Assembly (NCBI GenBank): GCA_009768925.2
Contig: VHIT02000002.1
Location: 248,001-312,000 of the forward strand
Source of the DNA: Cryptosporidium bovis
Taxonomy: Eukaryota; Apicomplexa; Conoidasida; Eucoccidiorida; Cryptosporidiidae
DNA length: 64,000 nt
Direction: 5' to 3'
Shown here piece after piece: positions 19,027 to 29,979 of this stretch. Positions within the stretch are counted from its first letter, which is position 1. Every line of letters begins with the position of its first letter. The translations under genes were made by a program, and so were the position numbers. A model generated the notes under the pieces. The model did not search any database and was not told the origin of the DNA. It worked only from the letters and a program-made list of their open reading frames with translations.

Positions 19027-19584
19027 TTATTCGTATTCACTTGCATTTTCTGATTCGTCTGTTTCAAGGGATTCTACCTCCAATGACTCAGAAGCTGATT
19101 GTTCTTCACTACTGCTCTCTTTTCTGGAGGATATAAACATTGATGTTGTATAAACCATAGCAGAACACTCGGATAAATCAGATAACTCCTTTTCGCTGTA
19201 CTCATTCACTATTTTTAGCGAAATCTGTTCAACTGCAGACAAATTCTCGATACTATCACTGCAGGCCAACACAAGGTCGGAAAGACTCTCTTCTAAGTTG
19301 CTTATTGAGCACTCTTTTGAGAAAGAATCATTTAGGGAGCTACAAGCCTCTAATATTTGTTCAGGATTTTGACTATCGGCAAATTCATCTCCACCAATGG
19401 CATTTTCAACCTCAACGACCTCTTCTGCTTCCTGGTTTTCATCTTCCACCTCATCTGGTTCAGAAACATGCGTTTTCTTGTCTTCAGAGTCAAATGCGTT
19501 TTTTTTCAGGTGCTCACCAAGAGAATGATAGAGTGAAATAGACAGGAAAAAGTAACAAAAAGCAAGATGAAACTTTATTTTCAT
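19027..19584 (-). CDS. Small secreted acidic protein, unknown
   Basis: A 185-residue protein with a signal peptide (FHLAFCYFFLSISLYHSLG). The mature part is very acidic, with Glu/Asp runs at about 38-65 (DEVEDENQEAEEVVEVEN) and a Ser/Glu-rich C-terminus. The centre has four cysteines in a helical stretch (EACSSLNDSFSKEC, LACSDSIENLS, SECSAMVYTT). No family is recognised. It resembles the many short secreted lineage-specific proteins of Cryptosporidium. A GGCGCC palindrome lies about 120 bp upstream of its ATG. Confidence 0.75.
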   Translation of the reverse strand: MKIKFHLAFCYFFLSISLYHSLGEHLKKNAFDSEDKKTHVSEPDEVEDENQEAEEVVEVENAIGGDEFADSQNPEQILEACSSLNDSFSKECSISNLEESLSDLVLACSDSIENLSAVEQISLKIVNEYSEKELSDLSECSAMVYTTSMFISSRKESSSEEQSASESLEVESLETDESENASEYE

Positions 19585-19763: not shown

Positions 19764-20797
19764 TCATGCCAATAATGGGATTTTGTGTTCATTTTCATCC
19801 TTATTTTGATTTGGTTTGTGCTTTAGCAGTGAACTTTCCAGCAAACTAATTCGCTTTGCCGCGGCAATCAGCTCCGAAATCTCATCCCAATTGAAAATGA
19901 TGCATGTGATCCCGGTTCTAACGGTATCGAAGCATCTTATAATCACGGCTCTGGAGCCGATTTATATGCTACCTTTTATAATTGACGGGACGAGAAGTAT
20001 TGTCGGCAGGAATTGGATTATTTCCCTTAGAAATCCGCTCGTTAAGTCATATTTAAAAAGGTAGAGATATATTTCTTTGTGAATAAGAGTGATATCGTCT
20101 AGAATAGAACTCATTGAGAATGTATTGAATAGGAATTCCTGATCCTCTTCGATAATGAGCTTTTTTCTAAAGGAGGCCTCCTTAATTTCTTTTTCTACTA
20201 TTTTGAAACTCAGGTCTTTAGATGTCAGATAGACTAGAAAAACGGAGACAAACAAGGAGAGTATCATGTATATAATCAGAGAGTACTTTGAGTCAGGAGG
20301 AAACAGTGGAATTCCACCAACTTCTTTACTTAAATGAATAATTACCGGGATGTGTGTAACGGCTCTGATTACAGACATAACAATCTTGAAATACAAACTC
20401 TCAACAAGTTTTACTACTCGAATCGTATCTTCCTGTACTCTTTGTGACACACCTTCGTTCTCCCTTATGTTAATCCAGTTGTTGAAGAAACTTCTAGTCT
20501 TGATTCTTCTCCAAATTAGCATGATTTTTACCAAAAAAACGAATTTGACACTCTCAAAAAAGATAACATAATCAAAAATGCCGGAAGCAAAAACATTTTT
20601 TCCTTGATTTTTCTCAGTATAGTTAAATCCCTCTCATTTGAGTTAAAAGACTTGACAAAAAGGTTATATATCTCAGCGAACCATGATGTCACCCTTAACT
20701 GCAGGCTTGAGTAAAAAACATTTAGAACGATTGTCAGAGCAATGTACCACCATGACTCCCTAATTAGTTTTAAGGAAAACAAAAGACTAAAGAACAT
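19764..20797 (-). pseudogene. Broken SbmA/BacA-type transporter copy
   Basis: Three consecutive open segments on the minus strand together cover an SbmA/BacA-like membrane protein paralogous to the neighbour at 20987-21958. The first starts with ATG at 20797 and ends in TAA at 20528. The second is in the -1 frame and carries the family signature EGVSQRVQEDTIR and the EASFRKKL motif. The frame change falls between about 20640 and 20540. The second segment ends at an in-frame TAA (19962-19964). The same frame then continues across the stop with family-like sequence (FDTVRTGITCIIF, ISELIAAAKRISLLES). Homology runs straight through both breaks with no intron-like gap, which argues for gene decay or sequence error rather than splicing. 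Confidence 0.8.
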
Positions 20798-20986
20798 TCT
20801 TTGCGAATTTCTAATACTTTACATGAGAATTATCTTCTATTACATTCATCTTTATTGTGGGGCGTGACGACTTTACATTTATACTGGCTCGTACTTTGAT
20901 CTGAAACTGTTCGAGTTACCCGTTTACGAATTTTTAGCATGGTTTAGACTTTGCATTATCTTCCTCCTATTTGGAAATTATTGATA

Positions 20987-21958
20987 ATGCTTTTTATTTT
21001 AAGGATTGATAATAGATCATGTACCTACATAATTTTGTTACTGCTGTTTATTTTAGTGATCTCTGTGTTCTTAATTTGGCTTGAGTATTCCGGAAACTCA
21101 CAAACCAAAGTTTTTGGAGACGCTTTTCAGAATGCAGTTAAAGCAAATTCGAAAGTAGGAATAGAGGATTTGTTTAGTCCCCTATTTGATCTAATATTAT
21201 TAAGAGTAACTAGTGTATTTGTTAAGTCTGTTCTAAATTACATATCTAGAAAGTGCATAATCTATTGGAGAATTGAGTTAACGGAACGCTTTTTATACAG
21301 CTGGGATTTGATACACTCTATAGAAGGCGTATCACAAAGGGTTCAGGAGGACATTATGAGATACTGTGCGATCTTAGAGCGATTACTTATATTTTTAGCT
21401 CAGGATTTTTTTATATTGATTGTATACTTCCCTTTATTATCTCGTTTAAGTTTAAATATAACGGAGACCTGGGTATTCCCAAATGTGACTGTTAATACAC
21501 TGCTTTCAATTATAATAATAAATAGTATTATTGGTACCTTGTTTGTTTTCATTCCAAGTAACTTATTGACAAAAGATATAATTGAGATAGACAAATCTGA
21601 AGCTTTATTTAGAAAGGAATTAGTACTTTGTGAGGTAAATGAAAACTACGACATGAGCCATTTTCCTGATATATATGATAACGTTGATTCGAAACATAGA
21701 CGTTATTACAACAAATACTTTGCTTTGAAGTTAGTTCAATCAATATACTCTCAACTAGCAAGAATATCATTTTGGATTTTTGCTCATCCGTCTATGGTCA
21801 CTCCCTACAGTATTGGTATTTTAAAACAAACAATGGACGCATTTGACCAGGTTTCCATTTCTTTTAACTTTTTAATTAGTAATTTTGGCGAGATAGTGGA
21901 ATTATTTGCTCTCCATAAGAGACTAAGTTCAATTGCAAAAGTGGTTTGGGGCAGTTGA
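20987..21958 (+). CDS. SbmA/BacA-family transporter, intact copy
   Basis: A 323-residue polytopic membrane protein of the bacterial SbmA/BacA peptide-transporter family. Diagnostic motifs are HSIEGVSQRVQEDIMRY (bacterial form HIEGAAQRVQEDTMRF), EALFRKELVL, and the C-terminal VELFALHKRLSSI (bacterial VELMSIYKRLRSF). About six hydrophobic segments are visible. Bacterial SbmA is about 400 residues, so this copy lacks some of the N-terminus. The first in-frame ATG is at 20987; an ATG at 20939 in the same frame meets a stop two codons later. Bacterial members import antimicrobial peptides and other substrates using the proton gradient. The family is essentially prokaryotic, so acquisition from a bacterium is inferred. 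A broken paralogue lies head to head across about 190 bp. Confidence 0.85.
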   Translation: MLFILRIDNRSCTYIILLLLFILVISVFLIWLEYSGNSQTKVFGDAFQNAVKANSKVGIEDLFSPLFDLILLRVTSVFVKSVLNYISRKCIIYWRIELTERFLYSWDLIHSIEGVSQRVQEDIMRYCAILERLLIFLAQDFFILIVYFPLLSRLSLNITETWVFPNVTVNTLLSIIIINSIIGTLFVFIPSNLLTKDIIEIDKSEALFRKELVLCEVNENYDMSHFPDIYDNVDSKHRRYYNKYFALKLVQSIYSQLARISFWIFAHPSMVTPYSIGILKQTMDAFDQVSISFNFLISNFGEIVELFALHKRLSSIAKVVWGS

Positions 21959-22410: not shown

Positions 22411-24651
22411 TTACTCTCTCGCAACCTGAATAGGCTTTGGGACATTAAGTAGTTCTCTTAAGTTTTCCAATACTACTTCATGTTTTGAAATGTATTTGTC
22501 ATCTTTGTTTAAGTCTACAAGTGAAATGGAAGATTGTATTTGCATGATTGACTCTATTGCAGAAATAACATCAACAGGAAGTTTTTGTGGAATCATTCTG
22601 ACTGACCATCTGAGTTTGTCCCACTCCAAGAAGAACATGTCATTATTTTCTTCCTGATAACTTATAAAGTTGATTGAATTTTTTTGTTTATCAGAGGATA
22701 TAGAAGGTGGAACCAACACATTTTCATGATGGGAAACGGAACTATTTCCCATTACATTTTGGTCGCAAGAGCCGAAACCAAAATCACTATTTGTACCATG
22801 GTTCTCTATTTTCTCTAAGTAGCCATATTCAATGGCTCTTTGAATGATCTTCTTTGCCCAGTATAGTGTACCTGGCTGGTTCCATTGTTCAGACTCCATT
22901 TTCAACAATTTGCCCATGTACTTAATATCAGTACCATTTGATATTTTCCCCTTTGATATCTCAAATGAAAGAGCCTTGTAAAAGTATCTAGAGGCTTCTT
23001 GGTAATCACCTAATTTCTCCGAACTAACACCCAAATTGAACCACAAGAAAGGGTCTGTAGGAGACTGTAAAAGGGCTTTTTCATAAACTTTGATGGAATA
23101 TGGATGAAGATTCATATTGGAATATATCTGTGCAATTCCAAACAAAGCAGTGATGTTAGTAGAGTCCAAATTATTTGCAGTCTTATAAGCAAATAAAGAT
23201 CCCCTAATATTTCCAAGTTCATGTAACGCATGGCCACATAATACCCAAATAAAGCTCGATTTATTGTCGAATAAAAGTGCTCTTTTGTAAAATCTAAGAG
23301 CTTTGTGCTTGTCATTAGTTAACCAATGGTACATTCCGAGTACAATGCAGGTTTCTAGTGAATACTTTGACATTTCTACGCATTTCTTTGCCAACAAACT
23401 CAGTTCCTTGACATTATTAGACTCTGAAAGTATCGTAGCTATCTCTATTACATTTCCAAGGTAATACTTGTCTTTATTTGAGATGTTTTGATGGATAATA
23501 AGCGAATTCTGTAAGTCGCCCAATTCATAGTTGCACTTTGCGATTTGAGATTCAACATATGAGCAAACATTATCAGGAAAGTACGTATTTGAAATGCTTA
23601 AATACTCGTTCAAAGCATCCTTCCACTTCCCTGTTTTCTCTAAATACAGTCCATATGATAAATGAGCAAACATGCAATTTGGAAGACCTAGCGAATGGAC
23701 ATAGTCGTTGTAACATGAATCTCTAAGTTGTTTAAATGCATCGAAATTGTTCTTTCTCCTAAAAAGTTGTAATCCAACATTGCTATTATTGCTGTTACTT
23801 TGATTTTCGTTTATTTGATCAGTTATATCAACTTTATCCCTTTGAGACATAATATATTCACGCATAACTATACCTGTATTATTGCTGTATAACAAATCCA
23901 TTCCATTTAATCCAAGTGAAGTATTGTTGTTCCCATCACTGATTACACAATTGCTATTATTCTCATTATTATTCGCATTACTGCCATTTTTGTTTGTGTT
24001 GGTGCTCCCAGTGATATTATTCGAGTTGTGTCTCGTTATGTTTTTGACCATGTCTACCCAACAGCTCCAGTTGCAAGGCTCGTTACAAACAGATCTGATC
24101 TGCAAATCCAGTGCCTCTGAGAATCTGTTTTGTTTATATACAACTACACTCAAAAGCCATTCTAAAAGTCCAACAAATTCGTTGTTAGATTTTTCCACAA
24201 TTAGTTGCCGTTTGTTCAAAAAATTTAGTATATCTCTTTCTATTCTAGAATAATTCACAGATATAACTGCATAGTCTGATGGATTAACAACCATATTCTC
24301 AAATTTTTCCATGTCTGTATTTTGTTTCTCCAACGAAATGAGTAAGGAATAGTTTTTCATAAATAATGCTAATGCTATATCATTCATTTCAGAGTCCTCA
24401 CTAAGTATACCAACAACTCTTGAATATTCTCTTGAGTTCATGTAGGATTTAGCTCTTATTAGTTTTAGCTTTTGCCTCAACGTTAAACCTTTCAACATTT
24501 CATCTGCACTAAAGTTCACTTTATTGTCACTGCTATTTTCCACATCGGAACTTATATCGTCAAAAGAATTGTCAAGCAACTCTGCCAACCACCTCTCATT
24601 TGAACTTAACCCCAAAAAAGAATACTTAAAGCAAGCATTCATAATCTCCAT
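22411..24651 (-). CDS. CDC23: Anaphase-promoting complex subunit 8 (CDC23)
   Basis: A 746-residue TPR protein of the APC/C ubiquitin ligase, which controls exit from mitosis. The N-terminal region resembles APC8 in having a helical array with LRQKLKLIRAKSYMNSREY. The C-terminal TPR superhelix starts near residue 430 and includes CIVLGMYHWLTNDKHKALRF, LFAYKTANNLDSTNITALFG and WFNLGVSSEKLGDYQEASRY. Their order matches APC8 (CxxxGNYYSLR..., then AWxLxGH). Asn-rich insertions at about 215-290 and 665-690 are typical low-complexity expansions of this lineage. A related subunit such as APC6 or APC3 is possible but the C-terminal signature favours APC8. It is head to head with the PhoD-like gene. 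Confidence 0.85.
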   Translation of the reverse strand: MEIMNACFKYSFLGLSSNERWLAELLDNSFDDISSDVENSSDNKVNFSADEMLKGLTLRQKLKLIRAKSYMNSREYSRVVGILSEDSEMNDIALALFMKNYSLLISLEKQNTDMEKFENMVVNPSDYAVISVNYSRIERDILNFLNKRQLIVEKSNNEFVGLLEWLLSVVVYKQNRFSEALDLQIRSVCNEPCNWSCWVDMVKNITRHNSNNITGSTNTNKNGSNANNNENNSNCVISDGNNNTSLGLNGMDLLYSNNTGIVMREYIMSQRDKVDITDQINENQSNSNNSNVGLQLFRRKNNFDAFKQLRDSCYNDYVHSLGLPNCMFAHLSYGLYLEKTGKWKDALNEYLSISNTYFPDNVCSYVESQIAKCNYELGDLQNSLIIHQNISNKDKYYLGNVIEIATILSESNNVKELSLLAKKCVEMSKYSLETCIVLGMYHWLTNDKHKALRFYKRALLFDNKSSFIWVLCGHALHELGNIRGSLFAYKTANNLDSTNITALFGIAQIYSNMNLHPYSIKVYEKALLQSPTDPFLWFNLGVSSEKLGDYQEASRYFYKALSFEISKGKISNGTDIKYMGKLLKMESEQWNQPGTLYWAKKIIQRAIEYGYLEKIENHGTNSDFGFGSCDQNVMGNSSVSHHENVLVPPSISSDKQKNSINFISYQEENNDMFFLEWDKLRWSVRMIPQKLPVDVISAIESIMQIQSSISLVDLNKDDKYISKHEVVLENLRELLNVPKPIQVARE

Positions 24652-25439: not shown

Positions 25440-26843
25440 ATGTTTATTTATATAATTTTTATATTCAAGTTGCTGTTATTGTGTGTTTTCTGTTTGGACA
25501 GAAATGTGACTAAACCAATAGAATCCCTTGTATTTATTAGTTGCCTAGATGGCCAAAAAGTAGATCCAATTACGGGAAAATACGTGTCACAGAATTTTTG
25601 GGAAAACATAACAAGAGATAAACCAGATGCACTTTTTTGGATGGGAGATGCGATATATACTAAATGTAACAACATAAGATGCATAAAAGAGGGATATGAT
25701 GTTCAGATTAACAACAGTCACTATAAAAAAGTTGTTGATAGTGGAATATTTATAGAAGGAACTTGGGATGATCATGATTATGGCGTGAATAATGGAGATA
25801 AAACATTTCAATATAAGAATGAAAGTAAACATTTGTTTCTGGATTTTATTTCTGTTCCGAGGGATTCTGAAAGAAGGAGTAGAGAAGGTGTATACTCATC
25901 ACATATTTTTGGGCCTCCAGGAAAACAAGTGAAGGTAATATTTCTTGATACAAGATATAATAAAGACGTTCATTATTTGCATAAAAAATATGGTGTGCCT
26001 CAATTTTCTCATTTTGATACATTCATGACTAGTTTGTTCGAAGCGTCTCTTTTTACACTTGCATCTATATTTGGATGTGGTTATTCTTATGAAGGGGATA
26101 TATTGGGGAAAGAACAATGGATTTGGCTTGAAAAAGAACTAAGTGAATCTGAAGCAAACGTAAACATTATTGTATCCTCTATTCAAGTTACTACTTTATA
26201 CCCAGTAATTGAAAGTTGGGGTCAATTTCCTGAAAGCAAAAACAAACTCTTTAATTTGCTAAACAAAACAAAAGCAAAAGGAGTTTTGTTTCTTTCTGGA
26301 GATGTACATTTTGGCCAGATATTTGAACTTAATGACAATAAAAACTTCGATATTATAGAAGTTACCTCAAGTGGTATTACTCATAGCATTTATGATAATA
26401 TAATTGAAAGACTTGCCATAGGATTTTCTCTTCCTCTCTACTCAAAAAGCAAACTTAAAGATAGTTCGAAAAGCTTTTCATTAAAAAGAAACTACGGAAG
26501 AATAGACTTTAAATACAATGAAAACAACGATAAAACCAATACTATAACACTAAATGTATCTATTCGAGATATGCAAGGCAAACCACAAATAATCAAGGAA
26601 TTTGTCGTCAAAGATGATATTAATTCCAGTATAGAACGTTTAGAACATATAAAAAATCTACCTCATTTAATTAACAAGAGAACCTTTAAACAAGTGTTCG
26701 GAAGACTATGCATCTTTATAGTTATTATTCTTTGGGGAGTTCAGATTGTTCTCATGACAGTTCAGACAATTGTCATCTTAATCTCCTTCGTTATTAGGTA
26801 CACAAACCTTTTTTTTCTGAGTAGAAAGAAAAAAAAAGACTAG
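25440..26843 (+). CDS. PhoD-like metallophosphoesterase, membrane-anchored
   Basis: A 467-residue protein with an N-terminal signal peptide (MFIYIIFIFKLLLLCVFCLD). The catalytic domain resembles the PhoD/alkaline phosphatase D group: FISCLDGQ, DALFWMGDAIY, the metal-binding GTWDDHDYGVNNGD (near residue 106), VIFLDTRYN, and FLSGDVHFGQ (near 286). These supply the Asp/His ligands expected for a dinuclear metal centre. From about residue 420 there are one or two hydrophobic segments (LCIFIVIILWGVQIVLM) and a short basic tail (RKKKKD), so the enzyme is probably held with its domain in the lumen or outside. The substrate is unknown; phosphomonoesters or phosphodiesters fit the family. Confidence 0.9.
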   Translation: MFIYIIFIFKLLLLCVFCLDRNVTKPIESLVFISCLDGQKVDPITGKYVSQNFWENITRDKPDALFWMGDAIYTKCNNIRCIKEGYDVQINNSHYKKVVDSGIFIEGTWDDHDYGVNNGDKTFQYKNESKHLFLDFISVPRDSERRSREGVYSSHIFGPPGKQVKVIFLDTRYNKDVHYLHKKYGVPQFSHFDTFMTSLFEASLFTLASIFGCGYSYEGDILGKEQWIWLEKELSESEANVNIIVSSIQVTTLYPVIESWGQFPESKNKLFNLLNKTKAKGVLFLSGDVHFGQIFELNDNKNFDIIEVTSSGITHSIYDNIIERLAIGFSLPLYSKSKLKDSSKSFSLKRNYGRIDFKYNENNDKTNTITLNVSIRDMQGKPQIIKEFVVKDDINSSIERLEHIKNLPHLINKRTFKQVFGRLCIFIVIILWGVQIVLMTVQTIVILISFVIRYTNLFFLSRKKKKD

Positions 26844-28107: not shown

Positions 28108-29979
28108 ATGTTGTTTGGTTTATTCGGAGGTGGTTCTGGAGGCACATCCCCAAAAAAAGGTCAGGACTATGGGAAAAGTATTGAAAAAAACAAAGGAACA
28201 TCTATAAATGGGATTATAATGGGTAAAGGAAACAATGAACAGAGAATAAATGGGAACTTTGATCCGACTGCACTGGAAAGAGGGGCAAAAGCCTTGAGAG
28301 AGTTGGACTCGTCTCCGAATGCCCAGAAGGCATTTGAGATAGTGAAATTACAGGAAAAAACTCGTCAAAAGGAGTTAGAAAAAGAGATAGAAGAAAGCAA
28401 TGCATATAGAGCAAGAACCAATTTAGAAAGAGTAAAGTTGGAGGGAGAGGAAAGAAGAAAGACTTTGACTCACCAGCAAGAGGAAGAGAGGATTACAGCT
28501 CAATATAAAGCGAAATTAGAGACAGAGGCATACCAGAAAAAATTAAAGGAGCAGGAAAAACAAAACGATAAGTTATTACAGCAACAGCACAGTAAGTTTT
28601 TGGAGCAGGAGGAAATAAGAAAATCCAACGAAAGGGAAATACTTGATATGAGAAAGAAGCAATTAGATTATGAAAAGAGAATTGAACAAGATAACATAAG
28701 AGTAAGAGTGAGAGAGGAGGTATTGGGAAAAATAAGATTGGAAAGGGAAAACGCCGATATACATATGGATGAAATAAAATTGAGATCAGAGGAAAGTAGA
28801 AAAACGAGAATTGATTCAATAAAAGCTATATTTAATGGATTTGCTGAAATAGGAGGATATTTTAGCAGGGATAGGTCTAAAATAGGGCTTTTAGTTGGCG
28901 GAATCACGAGTCTGGCTTTTGGAATATATTCGGCCAAGAATGGAGTTCACTTGGCAACAAAGATAATAGAAACGAAAATAGATAAACCGTCTTTGATTAG
29001 GGAAACCAATTTGACATTGTTTTCAAGGTACAAAAGTATGATTCCGACCTTAGGTGTGTTTCAAAAATTAAGTCCATATTTAAAGAGAACTTTTGTTGAG
29101 AGGCAAAAGGTATTTGAAAATGTAGTATTATCGGAAGATTTGGAAGAAAGACTTAGGTGGACAATAAATACTCTAGTAAATAGTAGGAAATATGGTATAC
29201 CATACAGAAATATGTTATTTTGGGGAAAACCAGGAACCGGAAAGACAATGTTTGCAAAAAAATTGGCAAAAGAAAGTGGATTAGACTATGCAATCATGTC
29301 TGGAGGAGACGTTGGTCCATTGGGAAAGAATGCTGTATCTGAGTTAAATAAGGTATTTGATTGGGCAAGAAGGTCAAAGAGAAACGGTTTATTGTTGTTT
29401 ATAGACGAGGCAGAATCATTTTTGTCAAAAGGAAGAGAACACGCTTTTTCAAATATGTCACAAGACACAAAAAATATATTAAGCTCGTTTTTGCACCAAA
29501 CAGGAACTGAATCAAAGGACGTTTGTGTACTACTGGCAACAAACATTCCAAATTCGCTGGATAATGCTGTTTTAGATAGAATAGATGAGTGTTTTGAGTT
29601 CCCAAATCCCGGTTTCAGTGAAAGACTTAAAATTATAAAGATGTTCTTGAACAAACACTTTGTTAGAAACAGGAACAATCAATTCTCTAATTACAATAGA
29701 AAAGATTTATTTAGTGTATTCAAGAAAAAATACTATTTATCTAGTGGAATTGAAATTCACTCTTCCATAGATGAGAATTTTTTGAGTTATTTAGCGGAAA
29801 AAACCCGTGGTTTCTCTGGAAGACAACTTTCTAAGCTAGTTTTAAGCATGAAATCTATTGTTTTGGGGAGCGGAATTAATTCACTAACTAGAGATGTGGC
29901 AGAAACAGCATTAAAATGGAAGCTTAAGAACTTTAATGAGGAGAGCGATGACTTTGAATTCAATCCAAGTTCATTTTAG
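28108..29979 (+). CDS. ATAD3: ATAD3-family AAA+ ATPase
   Basis: A 623-residue protein with full ATAD3 architecture. The N-terminal family signature is FDPTALERGAKALRELDSS. A long charged coiled coil follows (about 85-235), then a hydrophobic stretch at about 258-278 (IGLLVGGITSLAFGIYSA) that would be the inner-membrane anchor. The AAA+ domain has Walker A GKPGTGKT (near 372), Walker B LLLFIDEAES (near 430), sensor-1 region VCVLLATNIP and the arginine-finger region VLDRIDECFEFP. All ATPase residues are present. ATAD3 sits in the mitochondrial inner membrane in other eukaryotes and has roles in membrane contacts and nucleoid organisation. In a Cryptosporidium-type parasite the expected site is the mitosome, which has no DNA, so a nucleoid-independent role is implied. 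Confidence 0.94.
   Translation: MLFGLFGGGSGGTSPKKGQDYGKSIEKNKGTSINGIIMGKGNNEQRINGNFDPTALERGAKALRELDSSPNAQKAFEIVKLQEKTRQKELEKEIEESNAYRARTNLERVKLEGEERRKTLTHQQEEERITAQYKAKLETEAYQKKLKEQEKQNDKLLQQQHSKFLEQEEIRKSNEREILDMRKKQLDYEKRIEQDNIRVRVREEVLGKIRLERENADIHMDEIKLRSEESRKTRIDSIKAIFNGFAEIGGYFSRDRSKIGLLVGGITSLAFGIYSAKNGVHLATKIIETKIDKPSLIRETNLTLFSRYKSMIPTLGVFQKLSPYLKRTFVERQKVFENVVLSEDLEERLRWTINTLVNSRKYGIPYRNMLFWGKPGTGKTMFAKKLAKESGLDYAIMSGGDVGPLGKNAVSELNKVFDWARRSKRNGLLLFIDEAESFLSKGREHAFSNMSQDTKNILSSFLHQTGTESKDVCVLLATNIPNSLDNAVLDRIDECFEFPNPGFSERLKIIKMFLNKHFVRNRNNQFSNYNRKDLFSVFKKKYYLSSGIEIHSSIDENFLSYLAEKTRGFSGRQLSKLVLSMKSIVLGSGINSLTRDVAETALKWKLKNFNEESDDFEFNPSSF

Follow-up and report, generated by a model that had tools for sequence, protein, structure and literature searches.

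An SbmA/BacA-family transporter gene of the bacterial short form in the apicomplexan Cryptosporidium bovis

The window gene and its family

The window is a stretch of 64,000 nucleotides from Cryptosporidium bovis (contig VHIT02000002.1, positions 248,001 to 312,000), and it carries a gene for an SbmA/BacA-family transporter, here called the window gene or window copy. An interrupted paralogue, the partner, lies head to head with it, and a CDC23/APC8 gene adjoins the pair. The window gene and the spacer in front of it are as follows.

20987..21958, plus strand: SbmA/BacA-family transporter gene, 323 amino acids; uninterrupted frame whose ATG aligns with the start of the bacterial short forms
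20798..20986, no strand: spacer of 189 bases separating the start codons of the two divergent genes, without room to encode the TM0 part of a long SbmA

The stop-to-stop frame runs from 20948 to 21958 on the plus strand, with the ATG at 20987. No stop codon is found in its 323 codons, against about 25 expected from base composition, and the other two forward frames carry 39 and 29 stops across the gene. The original prediction had placed an apicomplexan SbmA/BacA-type transporter here, and all three peptides that it quoted are present in the translation. Its family call is borne out by the Pfam SbmA_BacA profile (PF05992; 163 bits, E 1.5e-47, profile positions 14-310 of 315, cut-off 24), by the solved chains of E. 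coli SbmA (2e-28, 25% identity) and by an SbmA-like predicted fold. The NCBIfam models for SbmA (PRK11098; 8.5e-45, 153.7 bits) and for the 326-residue PRK12369 (1.7e-44, 152.5 bits) also match, with scores below their equivalog cut-offs of 492 and 385. Thus, judged by its profile scores, the protein is a member of the SbmA/BacA family rather than an SbmA equivalog.

The predicted structure has six long helices (predicted local distance difference test score, pLDDT, 89.2). In a Foldseek search the five best rows are all SbmA (E 4.8e-13 to 2.4e-11), followed by Rv1819c (2.4e-6); the fold also matches ABCD1 and ABCD4. A profile search found no ABC_tran match, and hence no ATPase domain, in the 323 amino acids. 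On this model the protein would belong with the SbmA-like peptide transporters (SLiPTs), which have a type IV ATP-binding cassette (ABC)-like membrane domain without an ATPase domain. SLiPTs are further defined by a glutamate ladder, by having lost the coupling helices through which an ATPase domain is contacted, and by importing peptides with protons as homodimers.

Two bacterial forms are available for comparison. With the long SLiPTs, E. coli SbmA and rhizobial BacA (7p34, 9g3d-9g3g), the window protein shares the core fold, the glutamate ladder described below and the lack of an ATPase domain; it differs from them in having no TM0a/TM0b helices and in Y285L and Y368F. With the short SbmA-like forms of Pseudomonadota (PRK12369-like, about 326-345 amino acids) it shares length, start, absence of TM0, ladder glutamates, F368 and L285, but identity is only about 30-32%, and it departs from them in W373F, E269I, its eukaryotic host and the PRK12369 score. 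TM0a/TM0b, the mark of the long form, are absent from a protein that starts at the short-form position behind a spacer too small to hold them, which places it outside the long-form subgroup. The N-terminus had been described as shorter than in bacteria. This holds against the TM0-bearing long form but not in general, as 95 of 192 bacterial rows, judged by length, are just as short. Since bacteria have the short form too, the short N-terminus, as read from the alignment, is a known bacterial build and no sign of truncation.

Conserved residues and the proton ladder

In bacterial SbmA the drive comes from protons that move along six glutamates, E193, E203, E269, E276, E287 and E378, and YddA lacks equivalents of E203 and E287, according to the passages of PMC13316013 considered here. 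Residues were compared in an alignment to 192 bacterial rows (112 listed proteins and 80 loci), numbered via the conserved QRVQED motif. The rows include close relatives, so that counts over them are not independent. A row was taken as short if the protein was under 360 residues or by the start of its frame, with no TM0 criterion. One SbmA-like protein, P0010, was excluded from the rows; it has 497 amino acids with its middle part duplicated, an odd architecture or an assembly fault.

The window protein has five of the six ladder glutamates (E193, E203, E276, E287 and E378), each of which is found in 190 or more of the 192 bacterial rows. In place of the sixth it has isoleucine (E269I), at a position that is glutamate in just 140 of 192. 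L285 has the same state in 23 of the 95 short bacterial rows, and F368 in 78 of 95. The bacterial majority residue is kept in 50 of 98 columns that are at least 95% conserved, compared with 12 of 97 columns that are less than 50% conserved. This column pattern speaks for purifying selection, and together with the missing stop codons it indicates that selection has kept the window gene.

Four copies in two head-to-head pairs

The genome (9,064,136 bases, 43 contigs) was searched in six frames with the SbmA_BacA profile. The window lies on its contig C42 (710,450 bases), and four family loci were found.

C8:6145-7098, plus strand: C8 plus copy, 202.5 bits
C8:4661-5575, minus strand: C8 minus copy, 170.2 bits
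C42:269047-269934, plus strand: window gene, 162.5 bits
C42:267827-268564, minus strand: partner, 132.0 bits, with one TAA inside

These loci form two divergent head-to-head pairs, with spacers of 189 (C42) and 494 bases (C8) between the start codons. Identity within the pairs is low, at 29% for C8 plus against C8 minus and 27% for the window copy against the partner's open piece. A comparison of the two head-to-head genes gave no DNA repeats beyond 36 nucleotides and 81%. A contig end is about 4.6 kb away from the C8 pair, and no telomere-like repeat pattern occurs in the 201 loci searched.

The partner is made up of the following parts.

19764..20797, minus strand: interrupted paralogue of the SbmA family, facing the window gene head to head
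20528-20818, minus strand: open piece 1, 96 amino acids, then a change of frame
19962-20633, minus strand: open piece 2, 223 amino acids, SbmA_BacA 2.5e-29
19962..19964, minus strand: in-frame TAA, with a 65-amino-acid open piece beyond

The 96-amino-acid piece alone gives no SbmA match, and is assigned to the gene by place and size. Beyond the TAA the family pattern goes on, as judged by eye; the two breaks therefore look recent, or are assembly faults.

The C8 minus copy (L006:4610-5632) is intact, with 338 amino acids, a predicted model of pLDDT 90.3, and the changes E203R and E269H. It is absent from the listed database proteins (the best 120 of 2817), among which its neighbour P0003 is present, and is probably unannotated or otherwise annotated.

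Phylogenetic position and origin

With one ABCD and two Rhizobium YddA-like rows as outgroup, the rooted tree sets these three ABC rows apart from every SbmA row with strong support (100/98). A phylogeny with the gene among eukaryotic ABC transporters had been named as what would speak against the original prediction; in this tree the window copy does not join the ABC rows sampled. The Cryptosporidium branches are extremely long, which makes positions within SbmA uncertain. In the rooted tree the window pair splits off ahead of the bacterial rows sampled (85/90), and in a tree without outgroup it belongs to an unresolved set with the short forms. Quick trees with one copy each set the window copy next to P0030, a short form (92), the C8 minus copy inside a short-form set (98), and the C8-plus group, weakly placed, at the base of the short forms (60).

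The C8-plus type is common to C. muris and the intestinal species (100/99 in the rooted tree), and thus predates their split. The tree without outgroup recovers two groups, the window copy with the partner's open piece (91/87), and the C8 minus copy with the seven C8-plus-type rows (81/95). All ten Cryptosporidium rows fall on one side in 0% of 200 bootstrap trees; however, the approximately unbiased test does not reject a single clade (p 0.24, log-likelihood 2.05 lower). C8 minus and the seven C8-plus-type rows carry a 1-residue insertion after position 152 that the window copy and all 192 bacterial rows lack; in the partner this site is unreadable, because of a change of frame nearby. The C8 plus copy shares 50 rare residues with C. 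muris, against 6.7 expected. For the window copy the same count is 5 with C8 plus (4.2 expected) and 10 with C8 minus (5.2 expected), a comparison without power, as the genome's own unrelated ABCD row reaches 13 against 7.1. The window pair may go back to the same transfer as the C8 type or to a second bacterial acquisition.

Among the 80 stretches kept out of 579 confirmed in the prokaryote scan, the homologues belong to Pseudomonadota or to groups labelled as such. This agrees with a 2025 survey of the domain Bacteria, which reports SbmA/BacA in Pseudomonadota only, and no eukaryotic holder is named in the passages of it considered (PMC12003926). Within eukaryotes the family was met in Cryptosporidium only, among the best 120 of 2817 proteins, where others could be hidden; a transfer from bacteria to Cryptosporidium is therefore the plain reading, in which direction and time are inferred.

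In IMG/VR, 244 of 394 pattern-matched stretches encode SbmA relatives, one of them on a contig of 375,937 bases (L111); these are either phage-borne genes or misassigned bacterial contigs.

Distribution within Cryptosporidium

The best 120 proteins include relatives of the C8 plus copy from C. canis, C. felis, C. muris and chipmunk genotype I, which are 48-65% identical to it, and two metagenomic proteins of the same type. P0003 is identical to the C8 plus copy, and its GenBank name is 'sensitivity to microcin B17 [Cryptosporidium bovis]'. The SbmA-named proteins of the genus (P0003, P0006-P0009) have the family and short form of the window copy but only about 20% identity to it; they are C8-plus orthologues with the insertion at 152, which the window copy lacks. 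No orthologue of the window copy itself from a second Cryptosporidium assembly is among the same 120 proteins, and a search with the window protein alone returned itself and one bacterial-type protein only, among 2483 candidates. Absence from independent assemblies had been named as a second point that would speak against the original prediction. At the level of the family, four further named Cryptosporidium species carry it.

The 120 proteins include no SbmA from C. ryanae, C. hominis or C. ubiquitum, and C. parvum is named neither there nor in the CDC23 listing. In a control search CDC23 turned up for C. ryanae, C. hominis, C. ubiquitum, C. felis and C. canis, so the database covers these species. 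The same control did not return C. muris or chipmunk genotype I, both represented among the 120 proteins, and C8 minus, although intact, is unlisted too, so the absences refer to listed annotated proteins only. Losses of SbmA in C. ryanae, C. hominis and C. ubiquitum are suggested.

Proposed function and alternative explanations

The window gene probably encodes a short-form SLiPT, an old bacterial acquisition that has been kept, copied and diverged in C. bovis and that works as a proton-coupled peptide importer. A bacterium of Pseudomonadota type is the most likely source of the family, with an entry into the Cryptosporidium lineage that precedes the split of C. muris and the intestinal species. 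If it behaves like E. coli SbmA, a protein of six membrane helices, without ATPase domain or TM0, would act as a dimer that alternates between outward-open and inward-open states, with protons along the conserved glutamates as its drive. Its substrates would be peptides, or bulky solutes resembling them, brought in across a parasite membrane; dimer, proton coupling, direction, substrate class and membrane are all taken by analogy. One residue weighs against this explanation: W373, found in 192 of 192 bacterial rows, is phenylalanine in the window protein.

The protein could instead be a real SLiPT that serves another step, such as export, transport across an organelle membrane or cobalamin uptake. 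This is a possibility we hold to be doubtful. SbmA relatives are promiscuous, and Rv1819c carries cobalamin, according to the portion of PMC13316013 considered. However, the C. bovis genome has no match to a B12-binding domain, which 12 of 14 control genomes do match; cobalamin is therefore an unlikely substrate, and the same applies to the cobalamin version of the cofactor uptake raised in the original prediction.

It is unlikely that the window gene is decaying and has no present function. The partner is interrupted twice, the branch is very long, W373 is changed, and the 120 best proteins hold no orthologue from elsewhere. Against decay, some 25 stops would be expected and none is seen, residues in conserved columns are retained at four times the rate of those in variable columns, and the ladder glutamates remain.

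A further alternative joins two claims, that the head-to-head pairs yield heterodimeric proton-driven importers, each with one full or near-full ladder and one degenerate ladder, and that the window pair is a second, separate acquisition. Here the C8 plus copy and the window copy would supply the full or near-full ladder, and the C8 minus copy, with its E203R and E269H, would be a degenerate partner. All seven C8-plus-type rows have six of six ladder glutamates. Heterodimeric ABC exporters with one dead ATP site offer a parallel to such an unequal pair, and no heterodimeric or eukaryotic SLiPT is described in the literature passages and database listings covered. We regard the two claims together as rather improbable.

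Much less credible is the reading as a divergent ABCD half-transporter of eukaryotic type from which the ATPase domain was lost. The families are related. YddA/BclA and the ABCD/Rv1819c type IV ABC transporters have the core fold, E193 and E276 in common with the window protein, the ABCD1 and ABCD4 folds match it, and the ABCD and SbmA profiles each reach the other's proteins: the Rhizobium YddA-like region scores 88 bits with SbmA_BacA and 100 with ABC_membrane_2, and the genome's own ABCD protein 32 and 145 (33.3 with SbmA_BacA in the six-frame search). However, these transporters have an ATPase domain, and E203 and E287, both present in the window protein, are missing from the rows tested (two YddA-like rows and that of the own ABCD protein). 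It scores 163 bits with SbmA_BacA against 31 with ABC_membrane_2, has no BLASTP match to the own ABCD protein at E 1e-3 (271 lines), and is separated from the ABC rows in the rooted tree. The ABCD-type half-transporter itself (L007:4109-6277, contig C42, plus strand; 722 amino acids, with ATPase domain) is the sole full ABC_membrane_2 match in the genome, and its nearest solved relatives are plant ABCD1 and the cobalamin transporter ABCD4.

Bacterial contamination or misassembly is very unlikely and the least credible explanation: although the nearest non-Cryptosporidium sequences to the window copy are short bacterial-type forms and the listed proteins hold no second Cryptosporidium orthologue of it, its best identity to bacterial rows is low, the family occurs in five named Cryptosporidium entries (seven with two unnamed), the contig is long and has CDC23 adjoining, and codon use is host-like, with a GC content at third codon positions of 0.31 inside the 0.25-0.35 spanned by 15 window genes.

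Relation to earlier records, and meaning

SbmA in Cryptosporidium is already in databases, where relatives are named SbmA or SbmA/BacA-like. Judged by titles and abstract starts, none of the papers found seems to treat the gene, and a mention in the C. bovis/C. ryanae genome paper (PMC7371110) is possible; the word SbmA does not occur in the passages considered of PMC6532270, PMC5146892 and PMC11130048, the last of which lists seven other C. bovis assemblies. New, as far as we have met, is that C. bovis has four copies arranged in two pairs, and that one pair member, the C8 minus copy, has a degenerate ladder.

If the proposed function is correct, a eukaryote would possess a proton-driven peptide importer, an uptake route unlike its ABC transporters, and might take up the peptide drugs, bleomycin-like compounds and aminoglycosides that SbmA carries in bacteria. 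Cryptosporidium species that list an SbmA gene and those that do not form a natural comparison, and the bacterial-type half-size transporters would be assayable in E. coli.

Neighbouring genes

Four further genes lie near the SbmA pair.

22411..24651, minus strand: CDC23/APC8, 78% identical to C. ryanae CDC23, which marks the contig as Cryptosporidium
19027-19584, minus strand: beside the pair, acidic Ser/Glu-rich protein of 185 amino acids with a hydrophobic N-terminus and no Pfam match
25440-26843, plus strand: PhoD-like phosphatase, 8e-15
28108-29979, plus strand: ATAD3-type AAA protein, 9e-61
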